The position numbers and the translations under genes are program-made. The notes beneath the pieces are model-generated. The model had not been told where the DNA came from. It was given only the letters and a program-made list of their open reading frames with translations, and made no database searches. This document shows, in pieces, positions 1,292 to 41,183 of a stretch of 64,000 nt of DNA. The stretch lies in the NCBI RefSeq assembly GCF_000421745.1, contig NZ_ATXP01000001.1, positions 62,001-126,000 of the forward strand, written 5' to 3'. Position 1 is the stretch's first letter; each line of letters starts with the position of its first letter. The DNA is from Nesterenkonia alba DSM 19423 (GTDB taxonomy: Bacteria; Actinomycetota; Actinomycetes; Actinomycetales; Micrococcaceae).

Positions 1292-3184
1292 ATGAGCACC
1301 CTGACCCCTGACACCCCGCCCTCAGGTACGTCCTTTCGAGGTCGCTGCCCGACACCTACTCAGTCCGCTGAGATCCTCACCCGCGCTCGCCGAAGAGGCC
1401 ACCGGCGCCTGGTCGCCGGCCTGGGGCTGAGCGCCGCCCTGGGGCTCACCGCCTGTTTTCCGGAGGGGCAGGCGGAGTTCGAGGATGTCGACTCCGGCGA
1501 AGACACTCAGACCACAGAAGAGCCCGACGACGCCGAGGAGGGGAACCAGACCCAGGCCGCCACCGAGCAGACTGACCAGGACAATTCCCCCGCGGACGCC
1601 GACGCTGGGGTCACTGTCGAGAAGACATTCGTCCACAAGGGTGTCCTTGGCTCCGGTGAGGAGATCACCATGGAGCTGACCGCCGGACCCATCGTTGCCG
1701 AGGGTGACCTGGCCGCAGTCCCCTTGCACCTGGAATTCGTCACCGGGGAGGGAACTGTCATGCCGCGTGATCTCTTCCACGGTCTGGTGGGGATCACCGA
1801 CGCAGAATCTGCCGGAGGTCAGGTCCGTCTCATCGATCACGAGGCGATGACCGTTGCAGAACTGGCCCGTCGTGACGGTGGAGAGGGGCAGATCGCCTCA
1901 TATTGCGACGCCACCGGAGACAGCTTCCAATGCGCCACCGAGCCCGGGGAGACGATGTCCTGGACCGGAGTGTTTGCCGCTCCAGAGGGGGAGACCGCTA
2001 GTGTGCTGCTGCCACACTTCGGACTGGTCACCGGGGTCCCCGTAGTGGAGGGTGACCTCCATGACGCCCACCCCACCGGGAGCTCGGAGAACTACGGGGA
2101 TATGGTCGGCGAAGCCTATGACCTGGTGACCTGGCGGCAGTCTCCGCATTACTCCGTGGACGTCGAGGGGGAGGAGACCACCGTCAGTCTGCCCTCCGAT
2201 GTGCTCTTCGACGTCGACTCCGCTGATCTCTCCGACGAGGCAGATGAAGCTCTGCAAGCCGCCGCCGAGGAGATGGAAGGCACCGAAGGTGGCCAGTTGC
2301 AGATCATCGGACACACGGACAACGTCCTCGACGAGGAGTACAACCAGGTGCTCTCCGAGGAGCGGGCGGAGGCCGTCCACGCTCGGCTCGAGGAACTCAC
2401 TGATCTGGATGCCTTCGACGAGGTCGCCGTCTCAGGGGAATCATTCCGTGAACCGATTGCCGACAACACCTCGGAAGAGGGCCGTGCCCTCAACCGCCGG
2501 GTGGAGCTGCACTTCACCACGGTGACCCCGGACGAGGAGATCGAAGTCACCGGTGAGCTGCCCGAGCCTTACGGTCCGGTCGCCTCAGCGGATGAGACCC
2601 TGCGTCTGGTCAACGGCGGCCACGGTCCCAACGCCGGAGAGGAGTTGGACCTAGAGGTGGACAGTGTCCAACGTGCTGACGGGCTCGTCGTCGTCGGTCT
2701 GCGTGTCACCGCCGTGGAGGATGACCAGTTTCTGGACTGGCCGCTGGAGACCGGCATCAGCACCATCCATGGAGGGATGGCGCAACTGGGTGCGGTGGAC
2801 CTGCCGTACTTGGCAGCCGGTGACCAGTGGGTCGAGCCGCTGCGCTACTTCCCCGGAGACATCGAACTCGACGAGCAAGCTCCCGAAGAGACTGACCTGC
2901 ACCGCCGGGACTACCGCCTGCTGACGGATGCGCTCTTCGCCTTCGCCAAGACGTACGACGCCGGTGAATCTGCAGTCGCTTATCTCGTCTATCCCGATCT
3001 CGGCGTCGACGAGGTGACCCTCGAAGCACCGGGCGAGGATGAGGACACCAGCCAACTGCAGCGCGGATTCGGGGTGAACCCCTTCCGATTCGAAGACGTC
3101 CCCGTCACCGATATCGACAGCAACACTGACCGGGCGGAGGACGGCGACCCGGAAGACGATGAGGCTGAAGACTCAGACGAATGA
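1292..3184 (+). CDS. secreted lipoprotein with central OmpA-type domain (630 aa)
   Basis: The protein starts with a basic N-region, a hydrophobic segment and a lipobox ending Leu-Thr-Ala-Cys (Cys about residue 55), followed by a Glu/Asp/Thr/Gln-rich acidic spacer to about residue 105. An OmpA C-terminal domain spans about 300-410: VLFDVDSADL, then IIGHTDN, then an LNRRVEL end, the pattern that binds peptidoglycan in OmpA, Pal and MotB relatives. Beta-rich domains flank it, at about 105-255 and 430-595. Both show a GEE(I/L)..EL start, a Gly-Gly segment before a Leu-(I/V)-Asp-like strand, and a final Pro-x-(F/L)-Gly element, so they may be duplicates. A good AAGGAG precedes ATG 1292. It lies directly before a second OmpA-family gene and probably sits on the outer face of the membrane, anchored to the wall. 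Confidence 0.85.
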   Translation: MSTLTPDTPPSGTSFRGRCPTPTQSAEILTRARRRGHRRLVAGLGLSAALGLTACFPEGQAEFEDVDSGEDTQTTEEPDDAEEGNQTQAATEQTDQDNSPADADAGVTVEKTFVHKGVLGSGEEITMELTAGPIVAEGDLAAVPLHLEFVTGEGTVMPRDLFHGLVGITDAESAGGQVRLIDHEAMTVAELARRDGGEGQIASYCDATGDSFQCATEPGETMSWTGVFAAPEGETASVLLPHFGLVTGVPVVEGDLHDAHPTGSSENYGDMVGEAYDLVTWRQSPHYSVDVEGEETTVSLPSDVLFDVDSADLSDEADEALQAAAEEMEGTEGGQLQIIGHTDNVLDEEYNQVLSEERAEAVHARLEELTDLDAFDEVAVSGESFREPIADNTSEEGRALNRRVELHFTTVTPDEEIEVTGELPEPYGPVASADETLRLVNGGHGPNAGEELDLEVDSVQRADGLVVVGLRVTAVEDDQFLDWPLETGISTIHGGMAQLGAVDLPYLAAGDQWVEPLRYFPGDIELDEQAPEETDLHRRDYRLLTDALFAFAKTYDAGESAVAYLVYPDLGVDEVTLEAPGEDEDTSQLQRGFGVNPFRFEDVPVTDIDSNTDRAEDGDPEDDEAEDSDE

Positions 3185-3203
3185 GGGACAGATCAGCTAT
3201 GCG

Positions 3204-3232
3204 TTGCAATTGCGAATTTGCTGTGGCATGCT
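3204..3232 (+). promoter_or_regulatory. candidate promoter TTGCAA-N17-CATGCT for the second OmpA-like gene
   Basis: TTGCAA at 3204-3209 and CATGCT at 3227-3232 are separated by 17 bp and lie 63 bp before the ATG at 3296. The layout matches the TTGCAC-N17-CATACT pair before the sugar transporter at 29602. The -10 keeps only the A2 and T6 positions, so confidence is modest. Confidence 0.4.
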
Positions 3233-3295
3233 GGGGCGTATCGCGAGACCTCCGCACCGCCCCGAAGTGGAGCCTAAGCATCGAGGAGTAGAGCA

Positions 3296-4657
3296 ATGCG
3301 CAGCACGGATCCCACACCCCGCGAGGCCCTGATGAGTTTGCCGCAGAAAACACTCGTCCGCCGTGGTGGACCGGCGGCCGCTCCGCTGACCGGGTTCTGT
3401 CTGCTCGCACTGCTGACCAGCTCCTGCGCCATCCTGGACTTCCCCCAGGGTGGCGGCTCCACTGAAGAGACCCCGCCTGTGGAGGAAACTCCCGAAGAAA
3501 CGGACTCCCCGGATGAGACCCCGGAGGCGGGGGAGGATGCCACCCAGGCGCCCGGTTCCGATGAGGTCCTCACTGCTGAGGTCGACGAGCCCATCACTCT
3601 CCAGGAATGTGAAGAGGCCGAGGAAGATGACGACGTCGCCCGCGTGACCTGGCTCGATGACGTCACCATGGAGGAGCAAGAGTACAGCGGCACCGAGGAT
3701 GAAGTGATCGAGATCAACGGTCAGCAGATCGAGCTTCCCGGCGCACCGGCGGTCATTATCCCCGAGCGGGTGGGGCAAGCCGGTTGCATCATCGAATACC
3801 AGGCCCCCGGTGCCTGTTTGCCCCGAGTGGAGATCTCCCGGGGCTACCTGCCCGGAGTCACTCTGCCCGAGCGCAGTATCCCGCAGGTTGACTTGCCTGA
3901 TGGCACCATCTTGGAGGAAGTCGCTCAGGAGGAGATCGTGATCGACGCGATCGAGGTTGATGGTGTCGTCGCTGAGGAAGTCTGCCAAGAGGAAGACGAC
4001 GACCTGGAAGAGGGCGATGTGGTCTGGGGTGTCACGCGCTGGTCAGAGACGCGCTGGTCAGAAACCCAGTGGTCAGAGACCCAGTGGTCAGAGACGCGCT
4101 GGTCAGAACGGCTCGACGACGTCACCGCCCCCACGATGTCCCTGCAGAGCATCTCAGCAAGTAGTCTCAGTCTGCCTACGGTGACGATCCCGACCGAGAG
4201 GCTGGAAACCTACCGGCTCGACGGCAGTGACCACACCGAGCGCACTGATGACGACGATGCGGTCTCTTATATCACCGAAGGTGATGTCCTCTTCGACAGT
4301 GATGAGTACGAACTGCGCTCAGATGCCGAAAGTGAGCTTGAGGCGATCGCCGAAGACATCGCCGCACGCGACGACGACTTTGTCATCGTCGTCGAAGGGC
4401 ATACCGACAACCTGCCCACCGAGGTCTACGACGACAATGATGAACTCTCCGAACTGCGCGCGGAGTCGGTTGTTGAATGGCTGGTGACCAACGCCGACGT
4501 CGACGTCGATGTCATCACAGCCATTGGCCGCGGGGAGGACTATCCCCGGGCGGATAACGACACCGAGGAAGGCCGAGCGGAGAACCGCCGCGTCGTCATC
4601 ACGGTGTACCCCGAAGACGCCGAGGATGAAATCGACTATGACCTCGAGGATGAGTAG
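3296..4657 (+). CDS. secreted lipoprotein with C-terminal OmpA domain and pentapeptide repeats (453 aa)
   Basis: A hydrophobic segment ends in a lipobox-like Leu-Leu-Thr-Ser-Ser-Cys, followed by a Pro/Glu/Thr-rich acidic spacer. A middle domain with several Cys residues follows (about 100-235), then five TxWSE repeats at residues 247-271, then an OmpA domain at about 325-440 (DVLFDSDEYEL, VVEGHTDN, ENRRVVI), and an acidic tail. The OmpA domain is expected to bind peptidoglycan. GAGGAG at 3283-3288 supports ATG 3296; an in-frame ATG a little downstream would give a shorter signal peptide. It follows the related gene ending at 3184 by 111 bp, and their products may act together at the cell wall. 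Substrate and role are unknown. Confidence 0.85.
   Translation: MRSTDPTPREALMSLPQKTLVRRGGPAAAPLTGFCLLALLTSSCAILDFPQGGGSTEETPPVEETPEETDSPDETPEAGEDATQAPGSDEVLTAEVDEPITLQECEEAEEDDDVARVTWLDDVTMEEQEYSGTEDEVIEINGQQIELPGAPAVIIPERVGQAGCIIEYQAPGACLPRVEISRGYLPGVTLPERSIPQVDLPDGTILEEVAQEEIVIDAIEVDGVVAEEVCQEEDDDLEEGDVVWGVTRWSETRWSETQWSETQWSETRWSERLDDVTAPTMSLQSISASSLSLPTVTIPTERLETYRLDGSDHTERTDDDDAVSYITEGDVLFDSDEYELRSDAESELEAIAEDIAARDDDFVIVVEGHTDNLPTEVYDDNDELSELRAESVVEWLVTNADVDVDVITAIGRGEDYPRADNDTEEGRAENRRVVITVYPEDAEDEIDYDLEDE
4034..4108 (+). repeat. five in-frame 15-bp repeats coding T-[RQ]-W-S-E
   Basis: Five consecutive 15-bp units encode TRWSE, TRWSE, TQWSE, TQWSE, TRWSE (residues 247-271 of the OmpA-like lipoprotein). 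Units differ at only a few bases (cgc or cag; gag or gaa), so the array is recent or under constraint. Repeat number could vary between strains by slippage. Confidence 0.95.
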
Positions 4658-29700: not shown

Positions 29701-31155
29701 ATGACTACACAGACTCGCTCTGGCGAGCCCGCCGTTGGCGCTGTCGCCTGGGTCGTGCTCGTCGCCGCCTTCGGCGGATTCCTCTTCGGCTTCGACACCG
29801 CCGTCATCAACGGGGCCGTAGGCCCCATCGCTGAGGAGTTTGACCTCGGCGCCGGGATGAGCGGCTTCAGCGTCTCCTCCGCCCTGCTGGGGTGTGTGAT
29901 CGGCGCTTTCACCGGTGGAAAGATCTCGGACATGCTCGGCCGGCAGAAAGCCATGTTGGTAGCCGCCGGACTGTTCTTCCTGTCGGCGATCGGCACGGGG
30001 CTAGTCTTCGGAGTCACCGACCTCATCGCCTGGCGTGTGATCGGCGGGATCGGCGTCGGGATGGCTTCTGTCATTGCCCCGGCGTACATCGCCGAAGTCT
30101 CTCCGGCTGCCTGGCGAGGCCGTCTCGGATCGCTGTTCCAGCTGGCCATCGTCGTGGGTATCTTCATGGCGGCCTTCTCCAACTGGATCTTCGCTGAGGT
30201 GGCCGGTGGCGCCTCCGAAGAGCTGTGGTTCGGGCTGGAGGCCTGGCGTTGGATGTTCCTCTCCGAGGCCGCCCCGGCGCTCATCTACGGCCTGCTGGCG
30301 TTGTCCATCCCCGAATCCCCCCGCTACCTGGTCTCCCGCGGACGCAACGACGACGCCGAAAAGGTCCTCACCGAGGTAGTCGGCATCCAGGGCAAGGACG
30401 ATCTCGCTCAGAAGATCGAGGACATCCGCGCCACCATCAACCTTGAGGCCCGGCAGAAACTTAAAGACCTGTTCCTCGGTGGGAAACTGATGCCGATCGT
30501 GTGGGTGGGTATCGGTCTAGCGGTGTTCCAGCAGTTCGTCGGCATCAACGTGATCTTCTATTACTCGACCTCCCTGTGGACCGCCGTTGGTATCGCTGAG
30601 GAGCAGGCCATGTTGGTCCAGGTCATCACCACCAGTGTGAACATCATCGCCACGATCGTCGGGATCCTCATCGTGGACAAGGTCGGCCGGCGTATCCCGT
30701 TGGCTGTCGGGTCGGCAGTCATGGCCGTGGGGTTGGGAACTATGGCCATTGCGTTCTCCCAGGCTGAACTCGTCGAAGTGGTCAACGAGTTCGGGGAGAT
30801 CGAGACCGAACCGAACCTCGTCGGTATGTGGGGTCCGATCGCCCTGGTGGCGGCCAATGTCTTCGTGGTCGGTTTCGGTGCCACGTGGGGTCCGTTCATG
30901 TGGCTGATGCTCGGGGAGATGTTCCCCAACCGGGTCCGGGCCGTGGCCCTGGGAGTGTGCTCGGCCTTCAACTGGCTGGCCAACTTCGCTATCTCTTCCA
31001 GCTTCCCCTCCATGGCGGAGCTCTCCCTGGTCTTCTCCTACGGGTTCTACGCGATCTCCGCGCTGATCAGCTTGTTCTTCGTGCTGAAGTTCGTCCCGGA
31101 AACTAAGGGTCGGGAGATCGAAGAGATGCAGGAGACTGCCCACCGCCGGAGCTGA
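29701..31155 (+). CDS. sugar porter family MFS transporter
   Basis: The 484-residue, 12-TM protein has the sugar-porter signatures: GGFLFGFDTAVINGA in TM1, DMLGRQ after TM2, RVIGGIGVGMASVIAPAYIAEVSP and WRGRLGS in the first half, PESPRYLVSRGR before the central loop, and PETKGREIEEM at the end. These place it with the XylE/GalP/GLUT-type proton or facilitative sugar carriers. Aromatic and Gln residues of the sugar site (QQFVGINVIFYY) are present. AAGGA precedes ATG 29701. The specific sugar cannot be deduced; no catabolic gene lies nearby. Confidence 0.92.
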   Translation: MTTQTRSGEPAVGAVAWVVLVAAFGGFLFGFDTAVINGAVGPIAEEFDLGAGMSGFSVSSALLGCVIGAFTGGKISDMLGRQKAMLVAAGLFFLSAIGTGLVFGVTDLIAWRVIGGIGVGMASVIAPAYIAEVSPAAWRGRLGSLFQLAIVVGIFMAAFSNWIFAEVAGGASEELWFGLEAWRWMFLSEAAPALIYGLLALSIPESPRYLVSRGRNDDAEKVLTEVVGIQGKDDLAQKIEDIRATINLEARQKLKDLFLGGKLMPIVWVGIGLAVFQQFVGINVIFYYSTSLWTAVGIAEEQAMLVQVITTSVNIIATIVGILIVDKVGRRIPLAVGSAVMAVGLGTMAIAFSQAELVEVVNEFGEIETEPNLVGMWGPIALVAANVFVVGFGATWGPFMWLMLGEMFPNRVRAVALGVCSAFNWLANFAISSSFPSMAELSLVFSYGFYAISALISLFFVLKFVPETKGREIEEMQETAHRRS

Positions 31156-31181
31156 TTTCACCTCTGTCAGTTCTGTCACTG

Positions 31182-31223
31182 GCAGCGGGCCCTGAGCGTC
31201 ATGCCACGTTCGGGGCCCGCTGC
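31182..31223 (+). terminator. terminator after the sugar transporter
   Basis: An 11-bp perfect stem (31182-31192 with 31213-31223) continues inward through a G-U pair and further pairings (GAGCG with CGTTC). It separates the transporter from the operon that starts at 31284. Confidence 0.82.
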
Positions 31224-31283
31224 GATCTCCGGGCTGCGTGCTACGTTAAGGAACAGCTCAGCATGCAGTGAGGGGGAACCAAG

Positions 31284-31676
31284 GTGACGGGGGAGCCGAC
31301 GTGGACATCGCCAGCCGGCGGTGACACCTTGCGCTTCTCCTCGCCCTCAGTCGGCAGCTCCGCGAAGCAGTGGCCTGTGGTCGCGGTCTTTGTGCTGAGT
31401 CTGGTCGGCGTCGTGATGGCTGTGCTCACCTCCCACCTGGTCTACGACCTGCCGGGCCTGGCGCTGGCCTCCTACCTGGTGGTGCTGCTAGGCGGATGCG
31501 CGCTCATCGGCTATCGCCGCTACGAGGCGATCCGGGCGACCCGCACCGGGGGAGGGTTCGCGGACCTCAGTGTCCAGCCGTTGGAGAAACTGGCCATCAT
31601 CACACTTGCGCTGGCGTGCCTCGCCCATGGGGCGGTGCTGGCCTATGAGGCGGCGGGGTGGTCGGTGTGGTTCTGA
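31284..31676 (+). CDS. small membrane protein, first gene of the tubulin-like operon
   Basis: The 130-residue product has an N-terminal soluble stretch of about 28 residues and three hydrophobic segments (about 30-54, 56-79 and 99-122), with a basic Arg/Tyr-rich loop between the second and third. GTG 31284 follows a GAGGGGGAA ribosome site. Its 3' end overlaps the following vWA gene by 19 bp, which argues for co-translation and a shared role. I do not recognise the family; it might be a membrane partner of the vWA protein. Confidence 0.75.
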   Translation: MTGEPTWTSPAGGDTLRFSSPSVGSSAKQWPVVAVFVLSLVGVVMAVLTSHLVYDLPGLALASYLVVLLGGCALIGYRRYEAIRATRTGGGFADLSVQPLEKLAIITLALACLAHGAVLAYEAAGWSVWF

Positions 31677-34189
31677 AGTGGATCTCCCGCCTGGGCGTAG
31701 CATTTTCGGCTGCGGCCCTGGCGACCGCCGGGGGTCTGTTGCCTGCCTCCGCCACTCAAGAGAACGCGCCCGACGACGCCCTGGCCACCAATGCTTCCCA
31801 GATCGCCACATGCTTGCAGTCGGCTCGTAGTATCAGCGGGCTGTTCCTCTTCGACCAGTCCGGCAGTCTCAGCAGCAACGACCCCGATGAGGTCCGGTAC
31901 GAGGGTTTGGAGACCGCACTGCTGAGCCTGTCGAGGCTGCAGCACGCCTCCGAGGCCACCGGGGACTCCCTGGACATTGAAGTGGCTGTGTCCGCCTTCG
32001 ACGGCGATTACTACCCCGCTCGCGATGTGGTCGGTTGGACACAGCTCAATGATGGGGAAGACGCCGACCGGGGCGAGATCATCGATCAGATCGTTACCAC
32101 CACCGCCGAACGCACCCAGCCTGAGGGCGGGACGAACTTCGAGGCCGCATTAGAAGGTGCCGCCGAGGATCTGGCAGATCGCGGCACCCGAGGCAATTGC
32201 CGGGTGCTGTTCTGGTTCACCGACGGGGAGTTCGAACGTGCCGAGGACTCGGTGGAGGCGGCTCGGGAGCGGATGTGCCGCGAAGACGGTCTGCTCGATG
32301 AGATGCGTGCCGCCGGCATCACCATCATCGGGCTGCAGCTGAATATGGAGGACCTCGACTCCGATGACCTGCTCTCCATGGCCACCGGATCCAGCGGCAC
32401 CCAGGACTGCGGAACTGTCCCGGTGCCCTCTGACTGGGCCAATGGCGCATTCCTCCACGCTGACGACACCGCCGGGTTGCGCCGGCTTTTCGGCTCCCTG
32501 GGCAACATCATCGAAGGCTGCACCCCGCAGGGCGAACGCGGGGCAGAGATCGACCCCGGAGTCGGCCGACTCAACGTGACCCTGGAGACTCTCGAGCAGA
32601 CCGAGCAGGTCGAGCTCACCGCCCCGGACGGTACGGTCATCACCGCCGGACCGGACGGCACCGTCACGGAGTCCGGTTACACCGCCGTGGCGCATTCGGA
32701 TGAGTCCTACCACTCGGTCACAGTTACCCTCCCGCCCGGTGCTGCTTCGGGCACGTGGAGCGTGTCTTCTGTTCCGGAGACTGAGGAGGAGTTCACCGAT
32801 TGGTGCGTCTACCCGGGGGTCAGCCTCCAGCACGCCGGCGGTGACGAGCCCACAGCGGGACAGACCGCGCATATCGCCTTCGACGTCGTCGACACCCACG
32901 GCGGACAGGCCAGCTTCGCCGACTACGAGGATGTCACCCTCACTGCCGCTGCCCACGGTGAGGATGGTCACCCGCGGGAGGCGACAGCGGAGATGACCGA
33001 CGACGGCGTCGTCGTCGCCGTGGACACCGAGGATACCGACGCCCGCATCCAAGTGCGGGTCTCCGCCCAGCCCACCACCATTTCCGGGCTGCATCTGACC
33101 CCCGTCGGGGCGGAGGAGGGCATCGCCCTGGCACTGAGCAGTGTGTTCCCCTCGGTGCGACCGCTGGATGAACTCGACCTCGGCAGCGCAGTGCGCCAGG
33201 ACCCTGCCACCGCTGAGCTGACCCTGAGCGGATCCCCCGACGGGCCCACCGAGGTGTGCCTGGGTGAGCCCGAGACCCTCACCGTCCCGGAAGAAGTCAG
33301 TGGCGACCAGCTGACTGTGGAGACCGGCTGCATCGGGCTGGATACCGGCGAAACCCGCACTGTGGAGGTCTCGGTGACCCCCGGTGCGCCCACTGTGGGT
33401 AACGGGGAAGCCGACTTGCCGGTTCGCCTCAGTGCCGCCGAAGGGTCCGAAGCCGCTGGCACCTCAGTGGATGTGGATCTGCCGGTCATCTGGCGCTATG
33501 AGGACCCCCGCGACGTCGGCGCGTTCTTCACCGTGCTCACCGGGCTGATGCTGCTCTCCGTGCTGCCGCTCTATCTCATCCTCGTGGCGGTCAAAGCTGC
33601 CACCGCCAAGTACACCACCGCCCGACTGCAGGGGGAGACCATCGAGCTGGTCATCGGCCCGGACGGTCCCCGCCGAGAACCGGCGGCTCCCAATGGACTG
33701 CTGCTCGATGACAGCCGGCTGGTGCCGGTGCCCGCCGATCCCGGAGGTTTCACCCACAACGGAGTCCGCCTCGGCGTGGAGAAGAAGCTGCTGAACCCGT
33801 TCAGCATGCCGGAGTTCTACGCCGAACCGGCCGCGACCGGGCAGCGCATCCTCACCAGTGAACAGCCGCCCACCGCCGACGGTTCCCGCGGCCGGGCCAC
33901 CCCCGGGCTCGGGTTCTTCGCTGCGGTGCTCATCGATGAGCACACCTTGGCCGGTGATGAGGACGAGATCCGCGCCACTGCGGTGGTCTTGGTCACTGAC
34001 ACCCATTTGTGGTCGGCCGACCTCGACCGCCTCCTGCGGGACACCGTGCCCTGGAGCACCATCGCCCAGTGGCGCAGTCAAGCCAAGCAGTCCGCGACAC
34101 CGGCGGCAGCCGCCAGCTACACAGCCGGTTCCACACCACCCGACGACGCCGGCCCCTCCCCGGGAGCCTCCCTCACCTGGCGGGGATAG
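31658..34189 (+). CDS. membrane-anchored von Willebrand factor A domain protein (843 aa)
   Basis: A signal peptide-like segment (to about residue 32) is followed by a vWA domain with an intact metal-ion-dependent adhesion site: Asp66-x-Ser68-x-Ser70, Thr159 in GGTNF and Asp189 in FTDGEF. An extracellular beta-rich region follows, with paired cysteines, to about residue 615. One strong membrane helix lies at about 622-645, then a cytoplasmic tail of about 200 residues. So the metal-binding face lies outside and the tail inside, where it could meet the tubulin-like protein encoded next. The GTG at 31658 overlaps the upstream gene; GTG 31667 is an alternative start. A 112-bp gap precedes the next gene. 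Confidence 0.88.
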   Translation: MVGVVLKWISRLGVAFSAAALATAGGLLPASATQENAPDDALATNASQIATCLQSARSISGLFLFDQSGSLSSNDPDEVRYEGLETALLSLSRLQHASEATGDSLDIEVAVSAFDGDYYPARDVVGWTQLNDGEDADRGEIIDQIVTTTAERTQPEGGTNFEAALEGAAEDLADRGTRGNCRVLFWFTDGEFERAEDSVEAARERMCREDGLLDEMRAAGITIIGLQLNMEDLDSDDLLSMATGSSGTQDCGTVPVPSDWANGAFLHADDTAGLRRLFGSLGNIIEGCTPQGERGAEIDPGVGRLNVTLETLEQTEQVELTAPDGTVITAGPDGTVTESGYTAVAHSDESYHSVTVTLPPGAASGTWSVSSVPETEEEFTDWCVYPGVSLQHAGGDEPTAGQTAHIAFDVVDTHGGQASFADYEDVTLTAAAHGEDGHPREATAEMTDDGVVVAVDTEDTDARIQVRVSAQPTTISGLHLTPVGAEEGIALALSSVFPSVRPLDELDLGSAVRQDPATAELTLSGSPDGPTEVCLGEPETLTVPEEVSGDQLTVETGCIGLDTGETRTVEVSVTPGAPTVGNGEADLPVRLSAAEGSEAAGTSVDVDLPVIWRYEDPRDVGAFFTVLTGLMLLSVLPLYLILVAVKAATAKYTTARLQGETIELVIGPDGPRREPAAPNGLLLDDSRLVPVPADPGGFTHNGVRLGVEKKLLNPFSMPEFYAEPAATGQRILTSEQPPTADGSRGRATPGLGFFAAVLIDEHTLAGDEDEIRATAVVLVTDTHLWSADLDRLLRDTVPWSTIAQWRSQAKQSATPAAAASYTAGSTPPDDAGPSPGASLTWRG

Positions 34190-34219
34190 ACCCGGTGGGA
34201 CACCATCACCGCACGGAGC

Positions 34220-34256
34220 CCCACAGCACGCAGAACCCCCACAGGGAAACCCACAG
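34220..34256 (+). repeat. three CCCACAG repeats between the vWA and tubulin-like genes
   Basis: CCCACAG occurs at 34220-34226, 34238-34244 and 34250-34256 within the 112-bp gap. It may be a binding site cluster or chance in a C/A-rich leader. No hairpin terminator is evident here, so the operon probably reads through. Confidence 0.3.
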
Positions 34257-34301
34257 CCCGACGACCCCTGAAGGCCGAAGCACACACGAAAGGCACACAC
34301 T

Positions 34302-37300
34302 ATGGCAGACCAGCCCACTCCCGTCCGGCCGTTCATCTTCGTTGGCGTCGGCGGCACTGGGGGCAAGACGCTCGGCATCGTGCGGAAAACCGTCTCCGAT
34401 GCGTTGGAACGCGCCGGGTGGGACGGCGGCTGGCCCGCGGCCTGGCAGTTCGTGCAGATCGACGTGCCCGCAGCCCCGGACACCGGCGCCGCCGACCCCG
34501 CCTTCGCCCTGCCCCGCAGTGTCTACGTGCCGTTGAGCTCGGCCAAGAGCACCTATGCCGGCTACCACCAATCCATCAGCCAACAGCTGCAGCGCACCTC
34601 CGCTGATGCCGTCTCCCGTTACCTCGCCTGGGATAGCTGGCACCCCGAACCGCCCGAAAGCGTGCGGGTCGACATCACCCAGGGGGCCGGTCAATACCGG
34701 GCTGTGGGTCGGGTCGCGGCCCTGCACGCGCTGAAGGACATCGACTCCGCCCTCAAACGCGCCCGCGACGCAGCCGTGGACTCCGAGGCCAACGCCCAGT
34801 TACGCCGGGCCTTGCAGGAGGTCACCGGTCAGCGGTTCACCGGAGCTGACGGCGCTGATGATCCGGTGGTCTTCGTCGTCGGATCCGTGGCCGGAGGCTC
34901 CGGTTCGGGAATGTTCTTAGACGTCTGCGATGTACTGCGCGCCCACGGGCATAGCAACCTCAACAGCATCCTGTTCACCCCCGAGGTGTTCCAGCGACCC
35001 ACCGGGGCCATCGACCCCGGCGTCGCGCCGAATACCTTCCTCGCACTGACAGAGGCCTCGAACTCCCTGTGGATCACCTCCGCCGAGGATGCTCCGGTCT
35101 CCCGCACCCTGCATTTTGCCCGCGCCGGGGTCAGCGAACCCACAGGTCATGACACCTCGACCACATTCCTGCTGGTGGGCCGGCGTAACTCCACGGTGGC
35201 CTTCGACTCCGCCGATGACGTGTTCAAGATCGTGGGCCGCTCTGTCGGTGAACTGGTCCTGGACCCCGCGCTGACGGCGAACATCGTCGCCTATGACATG
35301 GCTAACTCTCAGGCGGTAGCGGAAGGCGGCACCGACAACCTGGGGCTTTCGGCCTCGGCCACGCGCCGGGATATCGCGCCCTTCCGCTCCATGGGGTTTG
35401 CCCGCATGACCGTGGGCCGGGACTTCTTCGACCGCTACGCCACTGACCGGATCCTCAAGCAGGCCGGTACCCGGCTGCTCGAAGGCCACCTGGAACGTCG
35501 CCGGCCCGACGATCTCTCCAGCGACGAGGAGCTCAAAGACCAAGCCGTTGATGAAGCCTGGCCCGGGTTCCTCGATGACATCGGCCTTGATGTCGATACC
35601 ATCGATCGTCGCCTCAACGTCTGGGACGACGACGGCTTCGCCGCCACCCGCCAGCGCTTCACCTCCGCCCTGCAGAACGAGATCTCCACCCTGGGCCAGC
35701 AACACCGGCGACGCATCCCCACCCCTGAGGCCCGCCAAGCGCTGGTCAACCGGCTGCAGGTCGCCACCCGGGAGGACAATGAGTACTCCGCCGACGTCGC
35801 CACCGTCTTCGGTCGGCTGGTCACCCGGCTCGCCGCGGCGGCCCAAGAGGATGTTCGCCGTGTGGTCCTGCACGCCGCGGCCTCCTACGGTCTGCCGGTG
35901 ACCATTGACCTCATTGCCCGGCTCATCGAGTCCAGTCGCGGTGCCGCCGCTGAGCTGCGCCAACGCGCGGCCACCGACCGAAAGCACCTCACCGACCGGC
36001 TGGCAGTGCTCAGCCGCGGAGTCAGCGGGGAACCCAACGACTTCACCCGGGACAACTCTGACTTCAGCGGGTTCCTCGTCTCATCGACCACTGAAGGCCT
36101 CCAGTGGCACGTCAGTGCTCAGCGGCGCGCCCAGGGAGCCGATGTGCTCGAAGACCTCACCGACAATCTGCTGGTGCCGTGGCGGGATGCCCTGCGCGAC
36201 GCCGCCGGACTCCTCCGCATGGACCTCTACCCGGAGCTCGGAGCCAGTCCCCTGGACATCTGGCCCGGCGAGCACGGGGTGCCCGACTACCTGCAGCCCT
36301 CCAAAGTCGAATTCCTGCTCGATGACACCGACACCTTCGCCGACCAGTTCGTCCACGTCATCGAACGTTCCCTCAGCGGAGCTCAAGGCCGGGCGGCTGT
36401 GGCCCGGGCAGTCGAGGACATCATCCAGGGCCGCCAGCTGGGACTCAACGCCCGCGGCGGTGAGGTCGCCCGCACCGAACGTCCCTGGGTGCCGGAATTG
36501 CGGCAGGCCCGGCCTGCCGGGCAGAACCGCTCCACCGCGCAGATCCACCTGGCCTTTGGGGTGGAGGACATCGCCACCCGCACCCACGCCTGGCTGCACG
36601 ACCGGGAGAAGTTCGTCGGTAAGTTCCTCAGCCAGTCGCTGGCTGACTATCTCACTGACCCCATGGTGGACGCAGCGGAACGACGTCGGCGTGAAGACGG
36701 CGTCGTCGGCGCCTTCGACTCCATGGTCCGTTCCTCCCGCCCGCTGGTCGCCCTGGACCCGGCGCTGACCAACCTCATCCACGGCTCGGCCGAGGCCCCT
36801 TACCGTCCGCACGCTTCAGCGCTGAACATCCCCAGTGAAGCCACGGACCTACGCCAACGGCTTCAAGACTCGGCGGCCTCCCTGCTCGGTGACCCCTCCG
36901 CAGTGCGGTTCACCACCGATCCGCGCAGCGACGCGATGATGATGACCCTGCTGCGCGAGCCCTACCACTTAGTGGAGATCGCCAGCATTATGGCTCCCAT
37001 CGTCGAACAGTGGCAACAGAGCACCTCCACCCGGATGTGGAACTTCCGCCGGGCCCGACCGCTCCCCGAATGGGTGCCACTGTCTCCGGCGGCCCGCCGC
37101 GCCCTCATCACCGGGTGGTTCGCCGAACGGTTGCTGGGCCGGGCCACGATCACTGTGGAGGGCAATAAACCGGTCCTCTCCGTGGAGGTGGACAGCACCC
37201 GGCACCAGCTGCCCCAGCGCGGAGTGCGGGAAGCCACCCCACAGGATCACGTGGGGCTGCTGCTTGAGGGGCTCTTCGCCGCTTTCGTGGAGGTTTACCG

Positions 37301-37652
37301 CACTAAGACCTTGGACGCCTTGGTGCCCTATCAGCACCTCATCGGTGTGGGGGCCTCCGTGCCGCAGGCGAGCAACGACGTCGTCTCCTGGGTCGCCGGA
37401 AGCGTGCAGGCCCCCGGGGCTGCTGATCTGCAGGATCCCGAAGCCCGCGACCTCTCCCGCCAGGACGCCGCACATTGGCTCATCGCCGAATGGCGCACCG
37501 GCTACGAGGCCATCGGCGGCCGGCTGCACAACCACGCCGCAGCCCAGGCTCACGCCACCTACGAGGTGATCCACGACGTGCTCGAGGCCCTCACCACGCT
37601 CGATGCCTGTGTGGAGCGTGGCACCGGGTCCAACCTGCCGGGCCGCCTGTGA
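34302..37652 (+). CDS. tubulin/FtsZ-superfamily protein, Tubulin_2-like (1116 aa)
   Basis: The protein opens with PFIFVGVGGTGGKTLGIVRK (residues 10-29), a nucleotide-binding first loop like that of FtsZ and tubulin. A second glycine loop AGGSGSGMF at about 197-205 corresponds to the GGGTGSG tubulin signature, followed by a helix-rich region. The first 400 or so residues therefore form a tubulin-like GTPase domain. The rest, about 700 residues, is mostly helical and charged, without membrane segments and unfamiliar to me. It is far longer than FtsZ (about 400 aa), so it is not the division protein. GAAAGG lies 8 nt before the ATG. Large FtsZ-like proteins of this kind have been proposed to remodel membranes; the role here is inference. 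Confidence 0.85.
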   Translation: MADQPTPVRPFIFVGVGGTGGKTLGIVRKTVSDALERAGWDGGWPAAWQFVQIDVPAAPDTGAADPAFALPRSVYVPLSSAKSTYAGYHQSISQQLQRTSADAVSRYLAWDSWHPEPPESVRVDITQGAGQYRAVGRVAALHALKDIDSALKRARDAAVDSEANAQLRRALQEVTGQRFTGADGADDPVVFVVGSVAGGSGSGMFLDVCDVLRAHGHSNLNSILFTPEVFQRPTGAIDPGVAPNTFLALTEASNSLWITSAEDAPVSRTLHFARAGVSEPTGHDTSTTFLLVGRRNSTVAFDSADDVFKIVGRSVGELVLDPALTANIVAYDMANSQAVAEGGTDNLGLSASATRRDIAPFRSMGFARMTVGRDFFDRYATDRILKQAGTRLLEGHLERRRPDDLSSDEELKDQAVDEAWPGFLDDIGLDVDTIDRRLNVWDDDGFAATRQRFTSALQNEISTLGQQHRRRIPTPEARQALVNRLQVATREDNEYSADVATVFGRLVTRLAAAAQEDVRRVVLHAAASYGLPVTIDLIARLIESSRGAAAELRQRAATDRKHLTDRLAVLSRGVSGEPNDFTRDNSDFSGFLVSSTTEGLQWHVSAQRRAQGADVLEDLTDNLLVPWRDALRDAAGLLRMDLYPELGASPLDIWPGEHGVPDYLQPSKVEFLLDDTDTFADQFVHVIERSLSGAQGRAAVARAVEDIIQGRQLGLNARGGEVARTERPWVPELRQARPAGQNRSTAQIHLAFGVEDIATRTHAWLHDREKFVGKFLSQSLADYLTDPMVDAAERRRREDGVVGAFDSMVRSSRPLVALDPALTNLIHGSAEAPYRPHASALNIPSEATDLRQRLQDSAASLLGDPSAVRFTTDPRSDAMMMTLLREPYHLVEIASIMAPIVEQWQQSTSTRMWNFRRARPLPEWVPLSPAARRALITGWFAERLLGRATITVEGNKPVLSVEVDSTRHQLPQRGVREATPQDHVGLLLEGLFAAFVEVYRTKTLDALVPYQHLIGVGASVPQASNDVVSWVAGSVQAPGAADLQDPEARDLSRQDAAHWLIAEWRTGYEAIGGRLHNHAAAQAHATYEVIHDVLEALTTLDACVERGTGSNLPGRL

Positions 37653-37692
37653 GCTGGTGGGAAGATGGCAGCCAGGTGACGGAGGTGGACAG

Positions 37693-40392
37693 GTGACGGT
37701 CGGCGTCGTCGTGGTCTGTCCTCCGGTGATCCTTGAGCAGGCCACCGAGTGGGGCCGGGCCGGGCTCATTGCTGACAGCCTGTGGATCAGCAGTGAGCAG
37801 GTCGACAGCATCGACCCGGATGAGCCCAACAGCATCACTGCCCGCCGTATCCGTCCCCACCGGATCGATGACGGCGTCCGCCTGGCCAAATCCCTCTCTG
37901 CCCTCGGGTCGCTGGATGAGGCCCGCATTGGATGGATCCGTACCCCTGCCGAGGATGCCACCCGACCCATCGCCGAGCTGGAGGCACTGCTGCGTCAGTT
38001 GCTGCCGGAGGATACGTACCGGTGGTTCGATATCGTCATCCCGCAGCGGCGCACCGACGCGGAACTCGCCCCGCTGCCCGGACGATGGGTGCGCCTGCGG
38101 GTGCTCCCCGAAGACCGGGCCACTCCTGATGTCACTGACGCCGGATGGGACCTGGACCTGCACGTGCCGCTGCACGCCTCCCTGGCCGCCATCGGCATTC
38201 TCGGAGGAGTGTTCACCCAGACACCCTGGGGCGCGGCAGAGGCCAACCGGCACTACGAGTTCCGGGCGTTTAGCCGACTGGTGCTGGGCCGAACGGTGGC
38301 CCGCTCAGCGGCTGAACGCTACTTGGCCGAAGATCTCCCGGCGCTGGCCGCCGGAGAAGCCCACCCGCGGCGTTACCTCACCGTGGAGGGTGCCGAGGCC
38401 GAGCAGGTGCTCGACTCCGCGGTGCATCACGTGCTGGCCGAGGGGGACGCCGCCCTGAGCTACACCCCGTTACCGCCCAGTGGGTTCGAACCCCCGCAGA
38501 AAGTCAGCCTGCTTCAGCACCTGCGGCAGATGGTCTCAGTGCTGCTGACCGGGCTGCTGGCTCTGCTGGGGCGGCGCATGGTGCCTGAGGCGCTGCTGCC
38601 GGACCGTTTCGACTTTACCGATCTGGGGTACTCGGTGGAGCGGTACTCGCTGAACCTCGGCTGGGGGCTGCGGATCCGCGACTACAACGCCGACGACGCC
38701 GCAGCCGCCTCGGCGGCGCGTCGTGACCTCACTGCCGAACGGGAGAAGCTACGCAGCCGTTCTCACCCGGTACCGCCCGGGGTGTGGCGGACTGTCGCTG
38801 GAACCGCCACCGCACTGGTCGACGGAGCAGAGCAGGTGACCAGCTGGCGGCCGCCGCAACGTGAGAACCGCACGGTGACGATCCCACCGGAGGTGGTCAT
38901 CCCGGAGACCGCAGCCCCGCAGACACCGAACCCGGAGGCACCGAACCCGCAGGCACCGGCCCCGGAGGTTGACCAGAGCCTCGGCGTCTTCGCCGAGGAG
39001 GGATCCGCCGCCGCCACGGTCGCACTGGCAACGCTACATGCCCGGCGCCCGGCACCGGTCACCGCCTGGGTCACCGAAGAACAGGTCTCAGCCACCGTCT
39101 CCGCCAGCGCTGAGGAATTCGCCCGCCACGGAGCCGCCCGTGATGCCGAGGCACTCAATGCCCAGCTCAGCGACTACCCGCAGGCCACCGGGCAGGTGGG
39201 TGGGCAGGTCGCACGGGGGTACTTTGAGAGGCTCCGCGGTGCCGTAGCCGGGGCCGCTGTGCGTGCTGACCTCGACGCCGACCGGTGGATGGACATCGCC
39301 GCCGATGAGACGCTCACTGAGGCCCAGGACTGGCAGGAACACGAACGCTCTTTCCGCCGCCGCAGTTGGCTGGGCTTGGGTATCTTCGCAGCCCTGGCCG
39401 CCGGATGGTGGTACTTCGCCGCCGACCTGCTGACCGTTTTGCCCGCCTGGTTCAGCGTTCCACTAGGCTTCGTCATCCTCGCTGTGTTCGCCGTGGCCCA
39501 CCTGGTCGGTACCTTCACCGGATTGTTCCGGGCCTATCAGTCCTATAACGAACGCGGACGACGTCGGCTCGAATATCGGCAGATGTTCTACCGCCATAGC
39601 CTGCACGCCGCACAGGAAGCAGTCCGCCTGCACTCCGCGCGTCGGGTGCTGGGCCGGTGGGCGGTGATCCTCACTGGGATCTTCCCGCGGGTCGAGAACC
39701 CGCACGAGGAGCCCGAGCAGAGCACTGTGCCTGAGCGGAGCCCGAAAGGTACCGCCTTCGCCCAACCCACATATCAGCGCCGCGAACTGACCCTCTGGTT
39801 GGCCGATGAGGCCGCCGAGCCCGGGTGGCGGCACCGCGCCCTGGCCTGGGCTGCCCGCGCCGATCAAGGGGTGGACGCCGAAGCGGACGCCTTCGCTGAA
39901 CTCTGCACCGACGATGGCTTCACCGGAGGACTCCTGGCCCGGCTCGCCGAAGACATCAGCCACCTCTGGCGCGACTACGAGCGCAGCCTGCGCACCGAGA
40001 TCGCCGACTCCCTGGCCAGTCGGCTCGTCGAAGACGGCACCCGCGCGCTGGAGATCATCACCCCCGAGCACCGTGCTGCCGCCATTGCCGCAGGGGAGCG
40101 TCCCGCCCCACAGCTCGAGGACTTTCTGGCCGAACCCTGGCCACAAGACGACGACGCCGACCGCTGGCAGCGCGACTACCGGCTCGCTGGCACTCGTGGC
40201 GGCTCCGGTGAGCCCCGTGCCGGTGCCGCCAGCAGCGGCCAGGAGCGCATCGAAGAGCTGGTACCCGATGTGCTGGCACTGACCGTGCGGCTACAGCACC
40301 GCGAACTGGAGACCTTCGAGGAGGTTACCGCCCCCGCCGAGTCCTCTCCGGATGCCGGGCAGGACTACCACCCCACCCGTGGCCGACTCTGA
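37693..40392 (+). CDS. unknown large membrane protein, last gene of the tubulin-like operon (899 aa)
   Basis: GTG 37693 is chosen because GGAGG at 37681-37685 lies 7 nt upstream and the tubulin-like gene ends at 37652; the open frame upstream overlaps that gene without a ribosome site. The N-terminal 270 residues are soluble alpha/beta. A hydrophobic stretch lies near 276-296, a Pro/Ala-rich repeat-like linker (PQTPNPEAPNPQAPAPE) near 415-435, and two clear membrane helices at about 557-579 and 586-608. A helical charged C-terminal half follows. Most of the chain is probably cytoplasmic. I know no family for it. Its place after the tubulin-like gene suggests a membrane anchor or regulator for that filament. 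Confidence 0.78.
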   Translation: MTVGVVVVCPPVILEQATEWGRAGLIADSLWISSEQVDSIDPDEPNSITARRIRPHRIDDGVRLAKSLSALGSLDEARIGWIRTPAEDATRPIAELEALLRQLLPEDTYRWFDIVIPQRRTDAELAPLPGRWVRLRVLPEDRATPDVTDAGWDLDLHVPLHASLAAIGILGGVFTQTPWGAAEANRHYEFRAFSRLVLGRTVARSAAERYLAEDLPALAAGEAHPRRYLTVEGAEAEQVLDSAVHHVLAEGDAALSYTPLPPSGFEPPQKVSLLQHLRQMVSVLLTGLLALLGRRMVPEALLPDRFDFTDLGYSVERYSLNLGWGLRIRDYNADDAAAASAARRDLTAEREKLRSRSHPVPPGVWRTVAGTATALVDGAEQVTSWRPPQRENRTVTIPPEVVIPETAAPQTPNPEAPNPQAPAPEVDQSLGVFAEEGSAAATVALATLHARRPAPVTAWVTEEQVSATVSASAEEFARHGAARDAEALNAQLSDYPQATGQVGGQVARGYFERLRGAVAGAAVRADLDADRWMDIAADETLTEAQDWQEHERSFRRRSWLGLGIFAALAAGWWYFAADLLTVLPAWFSVPLGFVILAVFAVAHLVGTFTGLFRAYQSYNERGRRRLEYRQMFYRHSLHAAQEAVRLHSARRVLGRWAVILTGIFPRVENPHEEPEQSTVPERSPKGTAFAQPTYQRRELTLWLADEAAEPGWRHRALAWAARADQGVDAEADAFAELCTDDGFTGGLLARLAEDISHLWRDYERSLRTEIADSLASRLVEDGTRALEIITPEHRAAAIAAGERPAPQLEDFLAEPWPQDDDADRWQRDYRLAGTRGGSGEPRAGAASSGQERIEELVPDVLALTVRLQHRELETFEEVTAPAESSPDAGQDYHPTRGRL

Positions 40393-40489
40393 CCCCGGGT
40401 GCGCGGAGACGGGCGCGCCTGGCACCCAGCTGGGGCACGGAAGCGCGTGAGGGCGTACCGGTGCGGTGGCGTCGTCGTGCGCCCTCCGG

Positions 40490-40495
40490 TATAGT
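40490..40495 (+). promoter_or_regulatory. -10 box TATAGT of the rplM promoter
   Basis: GGTATAGTGATGG is the best -10 sequence in the 347-bp gap 40393-40739. The -35 region (around 40467-40472) is poor. The leader to rplM would be about 240 nt; it is GC-rich with no coding frame and no structure I can name. I see no terminator after the preceding gene. Confidence 0.5.
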
Positions 40496-40739
40496 GATGG
40501 GTTGTTGTGCGTGTCCACCCCTGCGCGGACTCGTGTCGAGGCGGCTTCCGTTGCATAGCCGAAACAGCCTCCACCGACCGCAGGGACCCCACGGGCCCGG
40601 CACCGTTCCAGCCCTCACCTGGAGCGCCGGAAGCGCACTCGCAAGACTGACAGTGCATCAGGCACTGGTCCGGCGTGCATCTCACACGCGCCCGGCCCAC
40701 GTGCGCTGAACCGTAAACCGACCGTAAGGCAAACACACC

Positions 40740-41183
40740 GTGCGTACGTACACTCCCAAGCAAGGCGACAATGACGCCCAGTGGCACGTCATCGACGCCA
40801 CCGACGTCGTGCTCGGCCGGCTCGCCAGCCACGCAGCGACCCTGCTGCGCGGCAAGCACAAGCCGACCTTCGCCCCCCACATGGACTCCGGCGACTTCGT
40901 CATCATCATCAACGCGGAGAAGGTCGCCGTCACTGGTGACAAAGCCAGCAAGAAGCGTTACTGGCGGCACTCCGGCTTCCCCGGCGGCATCAAGTCGCAG
41001 AGCTTCGAGGAGCTCATCCAGCGTCACCCCACCCGCGTGGTGGAGCAGGCGGTCAAGGGCATGCTGCCCAAGAACAAGCTCGGCCGTGCTCAGCTGACCA
41101 AGCTGCGCGTCTACGCCGGCAGCGAGCACCCGCACACCGCCCAGCAGCCCAAGCCCTACGAGATTACCCAGGTCGCCCAGTAA
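40740..41183 (+). CDS. rplM: 50S ribosomal protein L13
   Basis: The 147-residue product carries [59 protein letters not shown] and [13 protein letters not shown], all typical of L13, an early assembly protein of the 50S. GTG 40740 follows AAGG in a GTAAGGCAAACACACC leader. It forms an operon with rpsI, 36 bp downstream. Confidence 0.98.

Follow-up and report, generated by a model that had tools for sequence, protein, structure and literature searches.

A compact FtsZ-like 1/vWA operon without GAP1-N2 or DO-GTPase2 matches in Nesterenkonia alba

Operons that combine an FtsZ-like 1 (FtsZl1) protein with a von Willebrand factor A (vWA) protein were described in 2010 by Makarova and Koonin (PMC2875224; here and below, statements on published papers refer to portions of their text). 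Tubulin_2 proteins were recorded from diverse bacteria and archaea in that study, counterparts of T6-H7 were not confidently identifiable, and membrane remodelling was proposed for the FtsZl1 family, a reviewer favouring transport or signalling instead. Kaur et al. (2020, PMC7159879) reported actinobacterial loci in which a tubulin and a vWA protein occur with a DO-GTPase and GAP1, and proposed them as conflict systems with the tubulins as assembling effectors. A 2023 study (PMC9871819) regards a direct link between the history of the group and that of FtsZ and tubulin as improbable. No experimental function of the Tubulin_2 family was found among the matches listed from open PMC papers, as judged by titles and the starts of abstracts. 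Here, we analysed a 64,000-nucleotide stretch of Nesterenkonia alba DSM 19423 (contig NZ_ATXP01000001.1, positions 62,001 to 126,000; "the window"), in which four genes encode, in this order, a small protein with three transmembrane (TM) helices, a vWA protein, a Tubulin_2 protein and a protein with a two-TM hairpin (genes 1 to 4). A first-pass annotation had proposed that this might be the undescribed system of the window. That suggestion does not stand, as FtsZl1/vWA operons have been known since 2010 and actinobacterial tubulin-vWA-GTPase loci since 2020. The operon is real and intact, a compact variant of this known, functionally uncharacterised family, and what is new here is a compact subtype of the tubulin-vWA operon without GAP1-N2 or DO-GTPase2 matches.

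Tubulin_2 was searched for among relatives (98 genomes), in the class (393) and in the order (396), the window genome being counted in each set. Positive genomes numbered 6, 27 and 22, respectively, or 46 different genomes together, and 47 tubulin neighbourhoods were fetched. The vWA gene, sought with profiles built from 7 and 8 of the loci, stands immediately upstream of the tubulin gene in 45 of these 47 loci; in the remaining two a contig end interrupts the locus. Strong matches to a gene 4 profile (E<1e-40; only two candidates scored per genome) were obtained in 20/396 genomes of the order, each of them one of the 22 Tubulin_2 genomes, and in 0/374 genomes without Tubulin_2, the two order surveys apparently covering the same 396 genomes. 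The profile rows came from 12 of the 20 strong genomes and not from G070, G551, G558, G602, G615, G655, G684 or G744. The two Tubulin_2 genomes without a strong gene 4 match are G540, which has a Streptomyces-type locus, and G636, a fragmentary assembly; the remaining 12 profile matches are weak (E 3.8e-5 or worse) and short. The genes are thus coupled across genomes, as the first-pass annotation had supposed, and are not routinely unlinked. At one locus (G551, L147:9404-12939), the tubulin gene is in two pieces in different frames and gene 4 is also in two pieces, the result of frameshifts or assembly errors.

The 46 genomes fall into 18 with a Streptomyces-type locus, which form a divergent branch of the tubulin tree, 16 of a long type and 12 of a compact type. 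In the long type, the core is followed by a further gene (c6) and then by GAP1, and in 8/16 DO-GTPase2 is matched no more than 5 kb past GAP1. The compact type consists of the core only (3-TM, vWA, tubulin, 2-TM) and spans eight genera (G000, the window genome, with G070, G071, G095, G159, G327, G382, G492, G501, G523, G602 and G684). Genome-wide at E≤0.001, GAP1-N2 (PF20013) was matched in 0/12 compact versus 16/16 long genomes, and DO-GTPase2 (PF19993) in 0/12 versus 10/16. Since the labels were assigned by neighbourhood, tree or genus, the presence of GAP1 in the long group is partly definitional; what does not depend on the labels is that GAP1 is missing from each of the 12 compact genomes. 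Enough flank to see the type was available for 10/12 compact and 14/16 long loci, contig ends cutting G070 and G382 (compact) and G655 and G636 (long), of which G636 was placed by genus. The window genome, which is 98.5% complete, has no PF20013 match, and none to PF19993 with all 42 candidates scored, a profile that also misses 6/16 relatives having GAP1. As neither GAP1 nor a DO-GTPase is matched here, the core can probably stand alone.

All four genes lie on the plus strand at 31284-40392 of the window, and the open reading frame (ORF) list agrees with the coordinates and sizes first given for them. Genes 1 and 2 overlap by exactly 19 bp, as had been noticed, and gaps of 112 and 40 bp separate genes 2-3 and 3-4. 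Six terminator-like sites were detected (3.1 expected) and none falls within either gap, in keeping with the earlier observation that the genes are not separated by terminators. The frames are all open, with ordinary codon usage (codon adaptation index 0.64-0.72). On the left the operon is flanked by a major facilitator superfamily (MFS) sugar transporter gene, itself preceded by truA, and on the right by rplM-rpsI-glmM. Right behind the MFS stop codon, an 18-nt hairpin (31182-31223, 89% complementary, without a T run) is a possible upstream transcript end. No NCBIfam family was matched by any of the four proteins at E≤1, a search of solved structures gave three matches (best E 0.45), and no Tubulin_2 relative was found among 158 stretches of viral contigs that fit a pattern.

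Gene 3 carries the family assignment. It matches PF13809 (Tubulin_2) with E 2.9e-41 and 142.4 bits against a cut-off of 27, so that the tubulin-superfamily assignment of the first-pass annotation, which would have been refuted by a lack of similarity in the first 400 residues, is supported at the level of Pfam; the two tubulin-type loops were found where it had read them, at residues 10-29 and 197-205. The protein agrees with 24/25 columns that are invariant across 19 relatives, the single miss being W44 for L, and the glycines of the T1 and T4 loops are mostly invariant across 20 aligned proteins. A paralogue of canonical FtsZ was ruled out, as gene 3 has no PF00091 match. Canonical FtsZ is encoded by a separate gene in the window genome (single PF00091 match, on contig C3), as in 20/20 Tubulin_2 genomes tested.

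The protein encoded by gene 2 matches PF13519 (E 1.3e-6, above the cut-off) and aligns with the vWA proteins of seven related loci over 642 columns (hhalign E 2e-40), the alignment extending beyond the TM segment into the tail. All elements of a metal ion-dependent adhesion site (MIDAS) are present, namely D66-x-S68-x-S70 together with the threonine of GGTNF and the aspartate of FTDG. A signal-peptide-like N-terminus was recognised, with a single TM segment at around residue 635 and a tail some 200 residues long. From the charges flanking the TM segment, the vWA head is predicted to face outwards and the tail to lie in the cytoplasm, the topology that had been proposed.

For gene 4 the longest ORF begins with an ATG at 37603 (929 aa) and has no good ribosome-binding site. 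The GTG at 37693 is preceded by a good one (GGAGGTGGACAG-GTG) and is therefore the preferred start. The size of 899 residues given by the first-pass annotation accordingly stands, while the description as a membrane protein needs qualification, the protein being mostly soluble with only one two-helix hairpin. No Pfam family was matched at E≤0.1. By hhalign, gene 4 is homologous to the gene after tubulin in other compact loci (E 1.1e-8, 363 columns) and in GAP1-bearing loci (E 1e-8, 663 columns), with three unrelated comparisons negative and nothing obtained against the third gene of the Streptomyces-type loci.

The gene 1 product likewise has no Pfam match at E≤0.1, and its three TM helices were predicted as first described. 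Of the 26 loci of the window's branch whose upstream sequence is long enough, 25 have a 3-TM protein just before the vWA gene (19 of the counted loci served to train the profile, with six matches outside training: L057, L060, L061, L062, L134 and L139); by profile, the sole exception is gene 1 of the window. None of the 18 Streptomyces-type loci has a 3-TM protein at this place, one of them having only 0.6 kb upstream. A half-profile built from the long type matched seven compact loci, with E from 7e-6 to 0.08, but no other of 7584 ORFs; the compact half-profile matched no long-type locus, and the two compared with each other give E 2e-6.

The operon was apparently acquired horizontally in this genome, because congeners lack Tubulin_2 and the MFS-rplM site is empty in the closest congener by rplM (L094), where the spacer measures 337 bp as against 9.6 kb in the window. 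Tubulin_2 was found in 0/29 congeners and 0/30 other members of the family, and the rplM region of 20 congeners shows none of the four genes. The MFS gene stands directly before rplM in nine of these 20, several kilobases intervene in two, one has truA without MFS, and eight have neither truA nor MFS in the fetched stretch. Since codon usage is ordinary, the gain would be old or the donor similar. The block is not a compositionally foreign island, its GC content being only slightly higher and its third-position GC content and codon usage ordinary. No transposition scar was recognised: 57 direct-repeat families were found in 31000-40800, and among the 20 shown none has copies at both block edges. 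The stretch upstream of rplM is variable in the genus, with phosphotransferase system (PTS), sugar-kinase, DeoR-regulator or mannitol-dehydrogenase genes in several congeners (e.g. L097, L103, L105, L101). A defence hot spot was rejected for this stretch, ten proteins from 6/20 congeners being PTS, sugar-kinase, mannitol and regulator genes. In mycobacteria, an ESX-4-like locus lies near rplM; no type VII family matched, and this candidate was discarded. The features mapped in the window and beside related operons are listed in Table 1.

Table 1. Mapped features; plain coordinates refer to the window, those with a prefix to neighbourhoods in other genomes
Feature	Position	Strand	Basis
Gene 1, small 3-TM protein, 130 aa, GTG start	31284..31676	+	ORF, TM prediction
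Gene 2, vWA protein, signal peptide, 1 TM, predicted cytoplasmic tail, 843 aa	31658..34189	+	PF13519, hhalign
vWA domain with complete MIDAS, residues 62-191	31841..32230	+	PF13519, sequence reading
Gene 3, Tubulin_2 / FtsZ-like 1 protein, 1116 aa	34302..37652	+	PF13809, invariant columns
Tubulin_2 domain, residues 12-388, T1-type VGVGGTGGKTL and T4-type AGGSGSGMFLD loops	34335..35465	+	PF13809; loop names after PMC2875224
Gene 4, 899 aa, central 2-TM hairpin, preferred GTG start	37693..40392	+	Ribosome-binding site, hhalign
Two-TM hairpin of gene 4, residues ~559-612, arginine-rich on both sides	39367..39528	+	Sequence reading
Conserved rplM leader, right limit of the extra block	40489..40739	+	77% identity, 277 columns, to L094 MFS-rplM spacer and rplM start
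Surface-anchored GmrSD_C-type nuclease directly beside tubulin-vWA operon	L033:14150-15073		
Surface-anchored GmrSD_C-type nuclease directly beside tubulin-vWA operon	L132:5155-6162		
Surface-anchored GmrSD_C-type nuclease directly beside tubulin-vWA operon	L135:5261-6193		
Surface-anchored GmrSD_C-type nuclease directly beside tubulin-vWA operon	L037:2313-3296		
Surface-anchored GmrSD_C-type nuclease directly beside tubulin-vWA operon	L169:5535-6425		
Surface-anchored GmrSD_C-type nuclease directly beside tubulin-vWA operon	L170:6345-7271		

On the whole, we think it probable that this compact, apparently horizontally acquired member of the FtsZl1/vWA family forms one complex in the cytoplasmic membrane that couples an outside ligand to assembly inside, because of the nucleotide loops, the MIDAS and the predicted topology. 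The vWA protein would present a metal-dependent ligand-binding head outside, linked through its one TM segment to a partly conserved tail inside, and the 3-TM and 2-TM proteins would serve as membrane partners or anchors. The tubulin-like protein would bind a nucleotide in the cytoplasm, most likely GTP, and assemble on the complex or switch it, ligand binding outside being coupled to assembly or disassembly inside. In the longer relatives, the downstream GAP1 and DO-GTPase genes, absent from the window, would likely provide a second switch. The analysis shows the gene content, the motifs, the linkage, the lack of matches to the switch families and the empty site in congeners; from these we infer that a complex forms, that it binds GTP and assembles, and in which direction it signals.

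Several observations weigh against this picture. The PF19993 profile has no match in 6/16 long-type genomes and first-look DO-GTPase2 candidates were partly unscored in six of the 12 compact genomes (G071, G095, G382, G492, G602, G684), so a diverged DO-GTPase may be present in the compact group. On the tubulin tree, each group corresponds to one label change, with supports of 100 and 99 for the other two groups but only 35 for the compact one; this tree was built by a quick method with 44 rows for 46 genomes, omitting G636 (a fragment), G159 (ORF missed by the GC filter), the second G382 fragment and L002 (same genome as L058). The gene 4 tree, with 19 rows (seven compact, 12 long), speaks for the compact group, separating all seven compact rows from the rest by a branch with support 100/100. 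Neither tree gives a direction, that is, loss of the switch genes or their later gain, and the window proteins are the most diverged of the group, with end branches of 1.76 (tubulin) and 2.61 (gene 4). Horizontal gain is probable from the comparison with congeners, with repeated loss as the alternative. For gene 3, the profile comparison with canonical FtsZ is weak (best E 0.016), a T7-type catalytic loop was not identified, and the AlphaFold model of residues 1-460, built from two aligned sequences, is unusable (pLDDT 39.0); with this low-confidence model Foldseek returned nothing below E 0.001, CetZ and FtsZ near the top of the list at E 0.7 or worse not being counted. The gene 4 model, also from two aligned sequences, is equally unusable (pLDDT 35.5). 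The kinship of gene 1 with the other 3-TM proteins is a further weak point, the match to their profile being weak (hhalign E 0.0015), and is best called suggestive: position, three helices and the comparison with controls concur, 0/84 three-TM controls reaching its score with the full profile and 2/84 and 1/84 with the two half-profiles.

The rival that fares best, although we hold it to be unlikely, is a conflict system directed against invaders, in which the tubulin-like protein would be an assembly-forming effector deployed on sensing an invader, by analogy with the proposal of Kaur et al. PMC7159879 classes the related loci among conflict systems, the spread of the genes is patchy (22/396 genomes of the order) and the operon is an extra block at a site empty in congeners. 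Yet the GAP1 and DO-GTPase that define that proposal have no match in the window genome, the window flanks are ribosomal and metabolic genes, and the four Tubulin_2 genomes found in genus g43 have near-identical tubulins, so that the genes can be stable. In its favour, 43 PADLOC families were matched at 1e-5 among the 44 proteins that flank eight compact loci (the 25 families listed were matched by one protein each), and a rescan of ten proteins gave one type IV restriction enzyme (L061) and one primase-like protein (L132). The four proteins themselves have no PADLOC 2.0.0 match at this threshold, the best being gene 4 with E 0.081.

Four of the 44 flanking proteins match GmrSD_C (PF07510), which we take to be an HNH-type nuclease domain, and this brings in a second rival, surface DNA handling, in which the membrane complex would intercept or import DNA, partnered in several lineages by an HNH-type nuclease that is itself anchored. 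GmrSD_C was sought in 35/46 genomes (12/12 compact, 16/16 long, 7/18 Streptomyces-type), yielding 59 genes; six of the 35 genomes have none, and the window genome has no match. The Corynebacterium glutamicum genome has matches to GmrSD_C as well as to Tubulin_2, GAP1-N2 and DO-GTPase2. A GmrSD_C gene lies within 13.5 kb of tubulin in 10/35 genomes and 7/26 genera, where random placement predicts 0.31 genera, under a distance limit chosen post hoc (tail 1.3e-8, or 4e-7 with one genus fewer). Among the long-type genera, which were not used for discovery, 3/12 have such a gene with 0.12 expected (P 1.8e-4, or 6e-3 if family f41, with two genera, is counted once; with a 20-kb limit 6e-4 and 1e-2). 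In these three the gene is at the far end of the operon, adjoining the DO-GTPase2 match in two, but 8/11 long-type far ends examined have no nuclease profile match. The gene occurs at the operon edge in several arrangements (upstream divergent, upstream co-directional, downstream co-directional and downstream convergent), and ten of ten proteins have a predicted N-terminal TM segment (two in G327) and keep the NGCD-x-R-x-D and D-H motifs. The G327 adjacency may belong to a restriction system instead, because the nuclease gene overlaps a type IV restriction gene. That large gene, at L181:4294-8480, gave a type IV restriction enzyme match with E 2.4e-288 for the part scanned. The main texts of PMC2875224 and PMC7159879, considered apart from their supplements, name neither GmrSD, DUF1524 nor any nuclease in this setting. 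We regard surface DNA handling as doubtful, somewhat more so than the conflict reading, and the nuclease as a lead that is not part of the window's system. The wider proposition that the actinobacterial tubulin-vWA core is a self-sufficient surface machine free of the DO-GTPase/GAP1 switch, whose original job would be DNA interception or import with this recurrent membrane-anchored nuclease as partner, is more speculative and the less probable of the two.

Membrane remodelling or vesicle formation, the 2010 proposal, draws on the linkage of a tubulin-superfamily protein to several membrane proteins (PMC2875224); none of the four proteins has a recognised remodelling domain, and transport or signalling was already suggested by the reviewer, so we rate it as improbable, a shade below DNA handling taken by itself. 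A decaying remnant of a longer operon after loss of its switch genes, to which the longest end branches of the set and the missing GAP1 and DO-GTPase matches could point, is very unlikely given four open frames of ordinary codon usage, a full MIDAS with nearly all invariant tubulin columns retained, and a compact form common to 12 genomes in eight genera.

The number of genes in the long operons makes them difficult to study, while the stand-alone four-gene version names a minimal set to express and purify, and it suggests that DO-GTPase and GAP1 are add-ons and not core. The recurrent surface nuclease offers a concrete, testable hint at a substrate, namely DNA.

Compared with the PF00091 tubulins FtsZ, CetZ and TubZ, gene 3 shares the glycine-rich loops of the superfamily and differs in its lack of a PF00091 match, its length of 1116 aa and the separate FtsZ gene. 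Two tandem proteins with OmpA-family domains are encoded at 1292-4657 of the window, 27 kb from the operon; OmpA proteins are FtsZl1 partners elsewhere. With the loci of Kaur et al. that carry GAP1-N2 and DO-GTPase, the operon has in common a membrane-bound vWA protein and a single tubulin with a C-terminal extension, and in the fetched GAP1-bearing loci the gene after tubulin is homologous to gene 4. It departs from them in that GAP1-N2 and DO-GTPase2 are without match in operon or genome and that no FNIII family is among the Pfam matches of genes 1-4 at E≤0.1, those genes being the part of the genome searched for it. The closest resemblance is to the FtsZl1/vWA operons: a tubulin-type N-terminal domain with T1 and T4 loops and a long C-terminal extension, a vWA gene with MIDAS in the operon, TM proteins, and canonical FtsZ elsewhere in the genome. 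Unlike those operons, genes 1-4 have no protein kinase, OmpA or P-loop GTPase domain, and this branch adds to what was described two further membrane partners, the 3-TM and the 2-TM protein.

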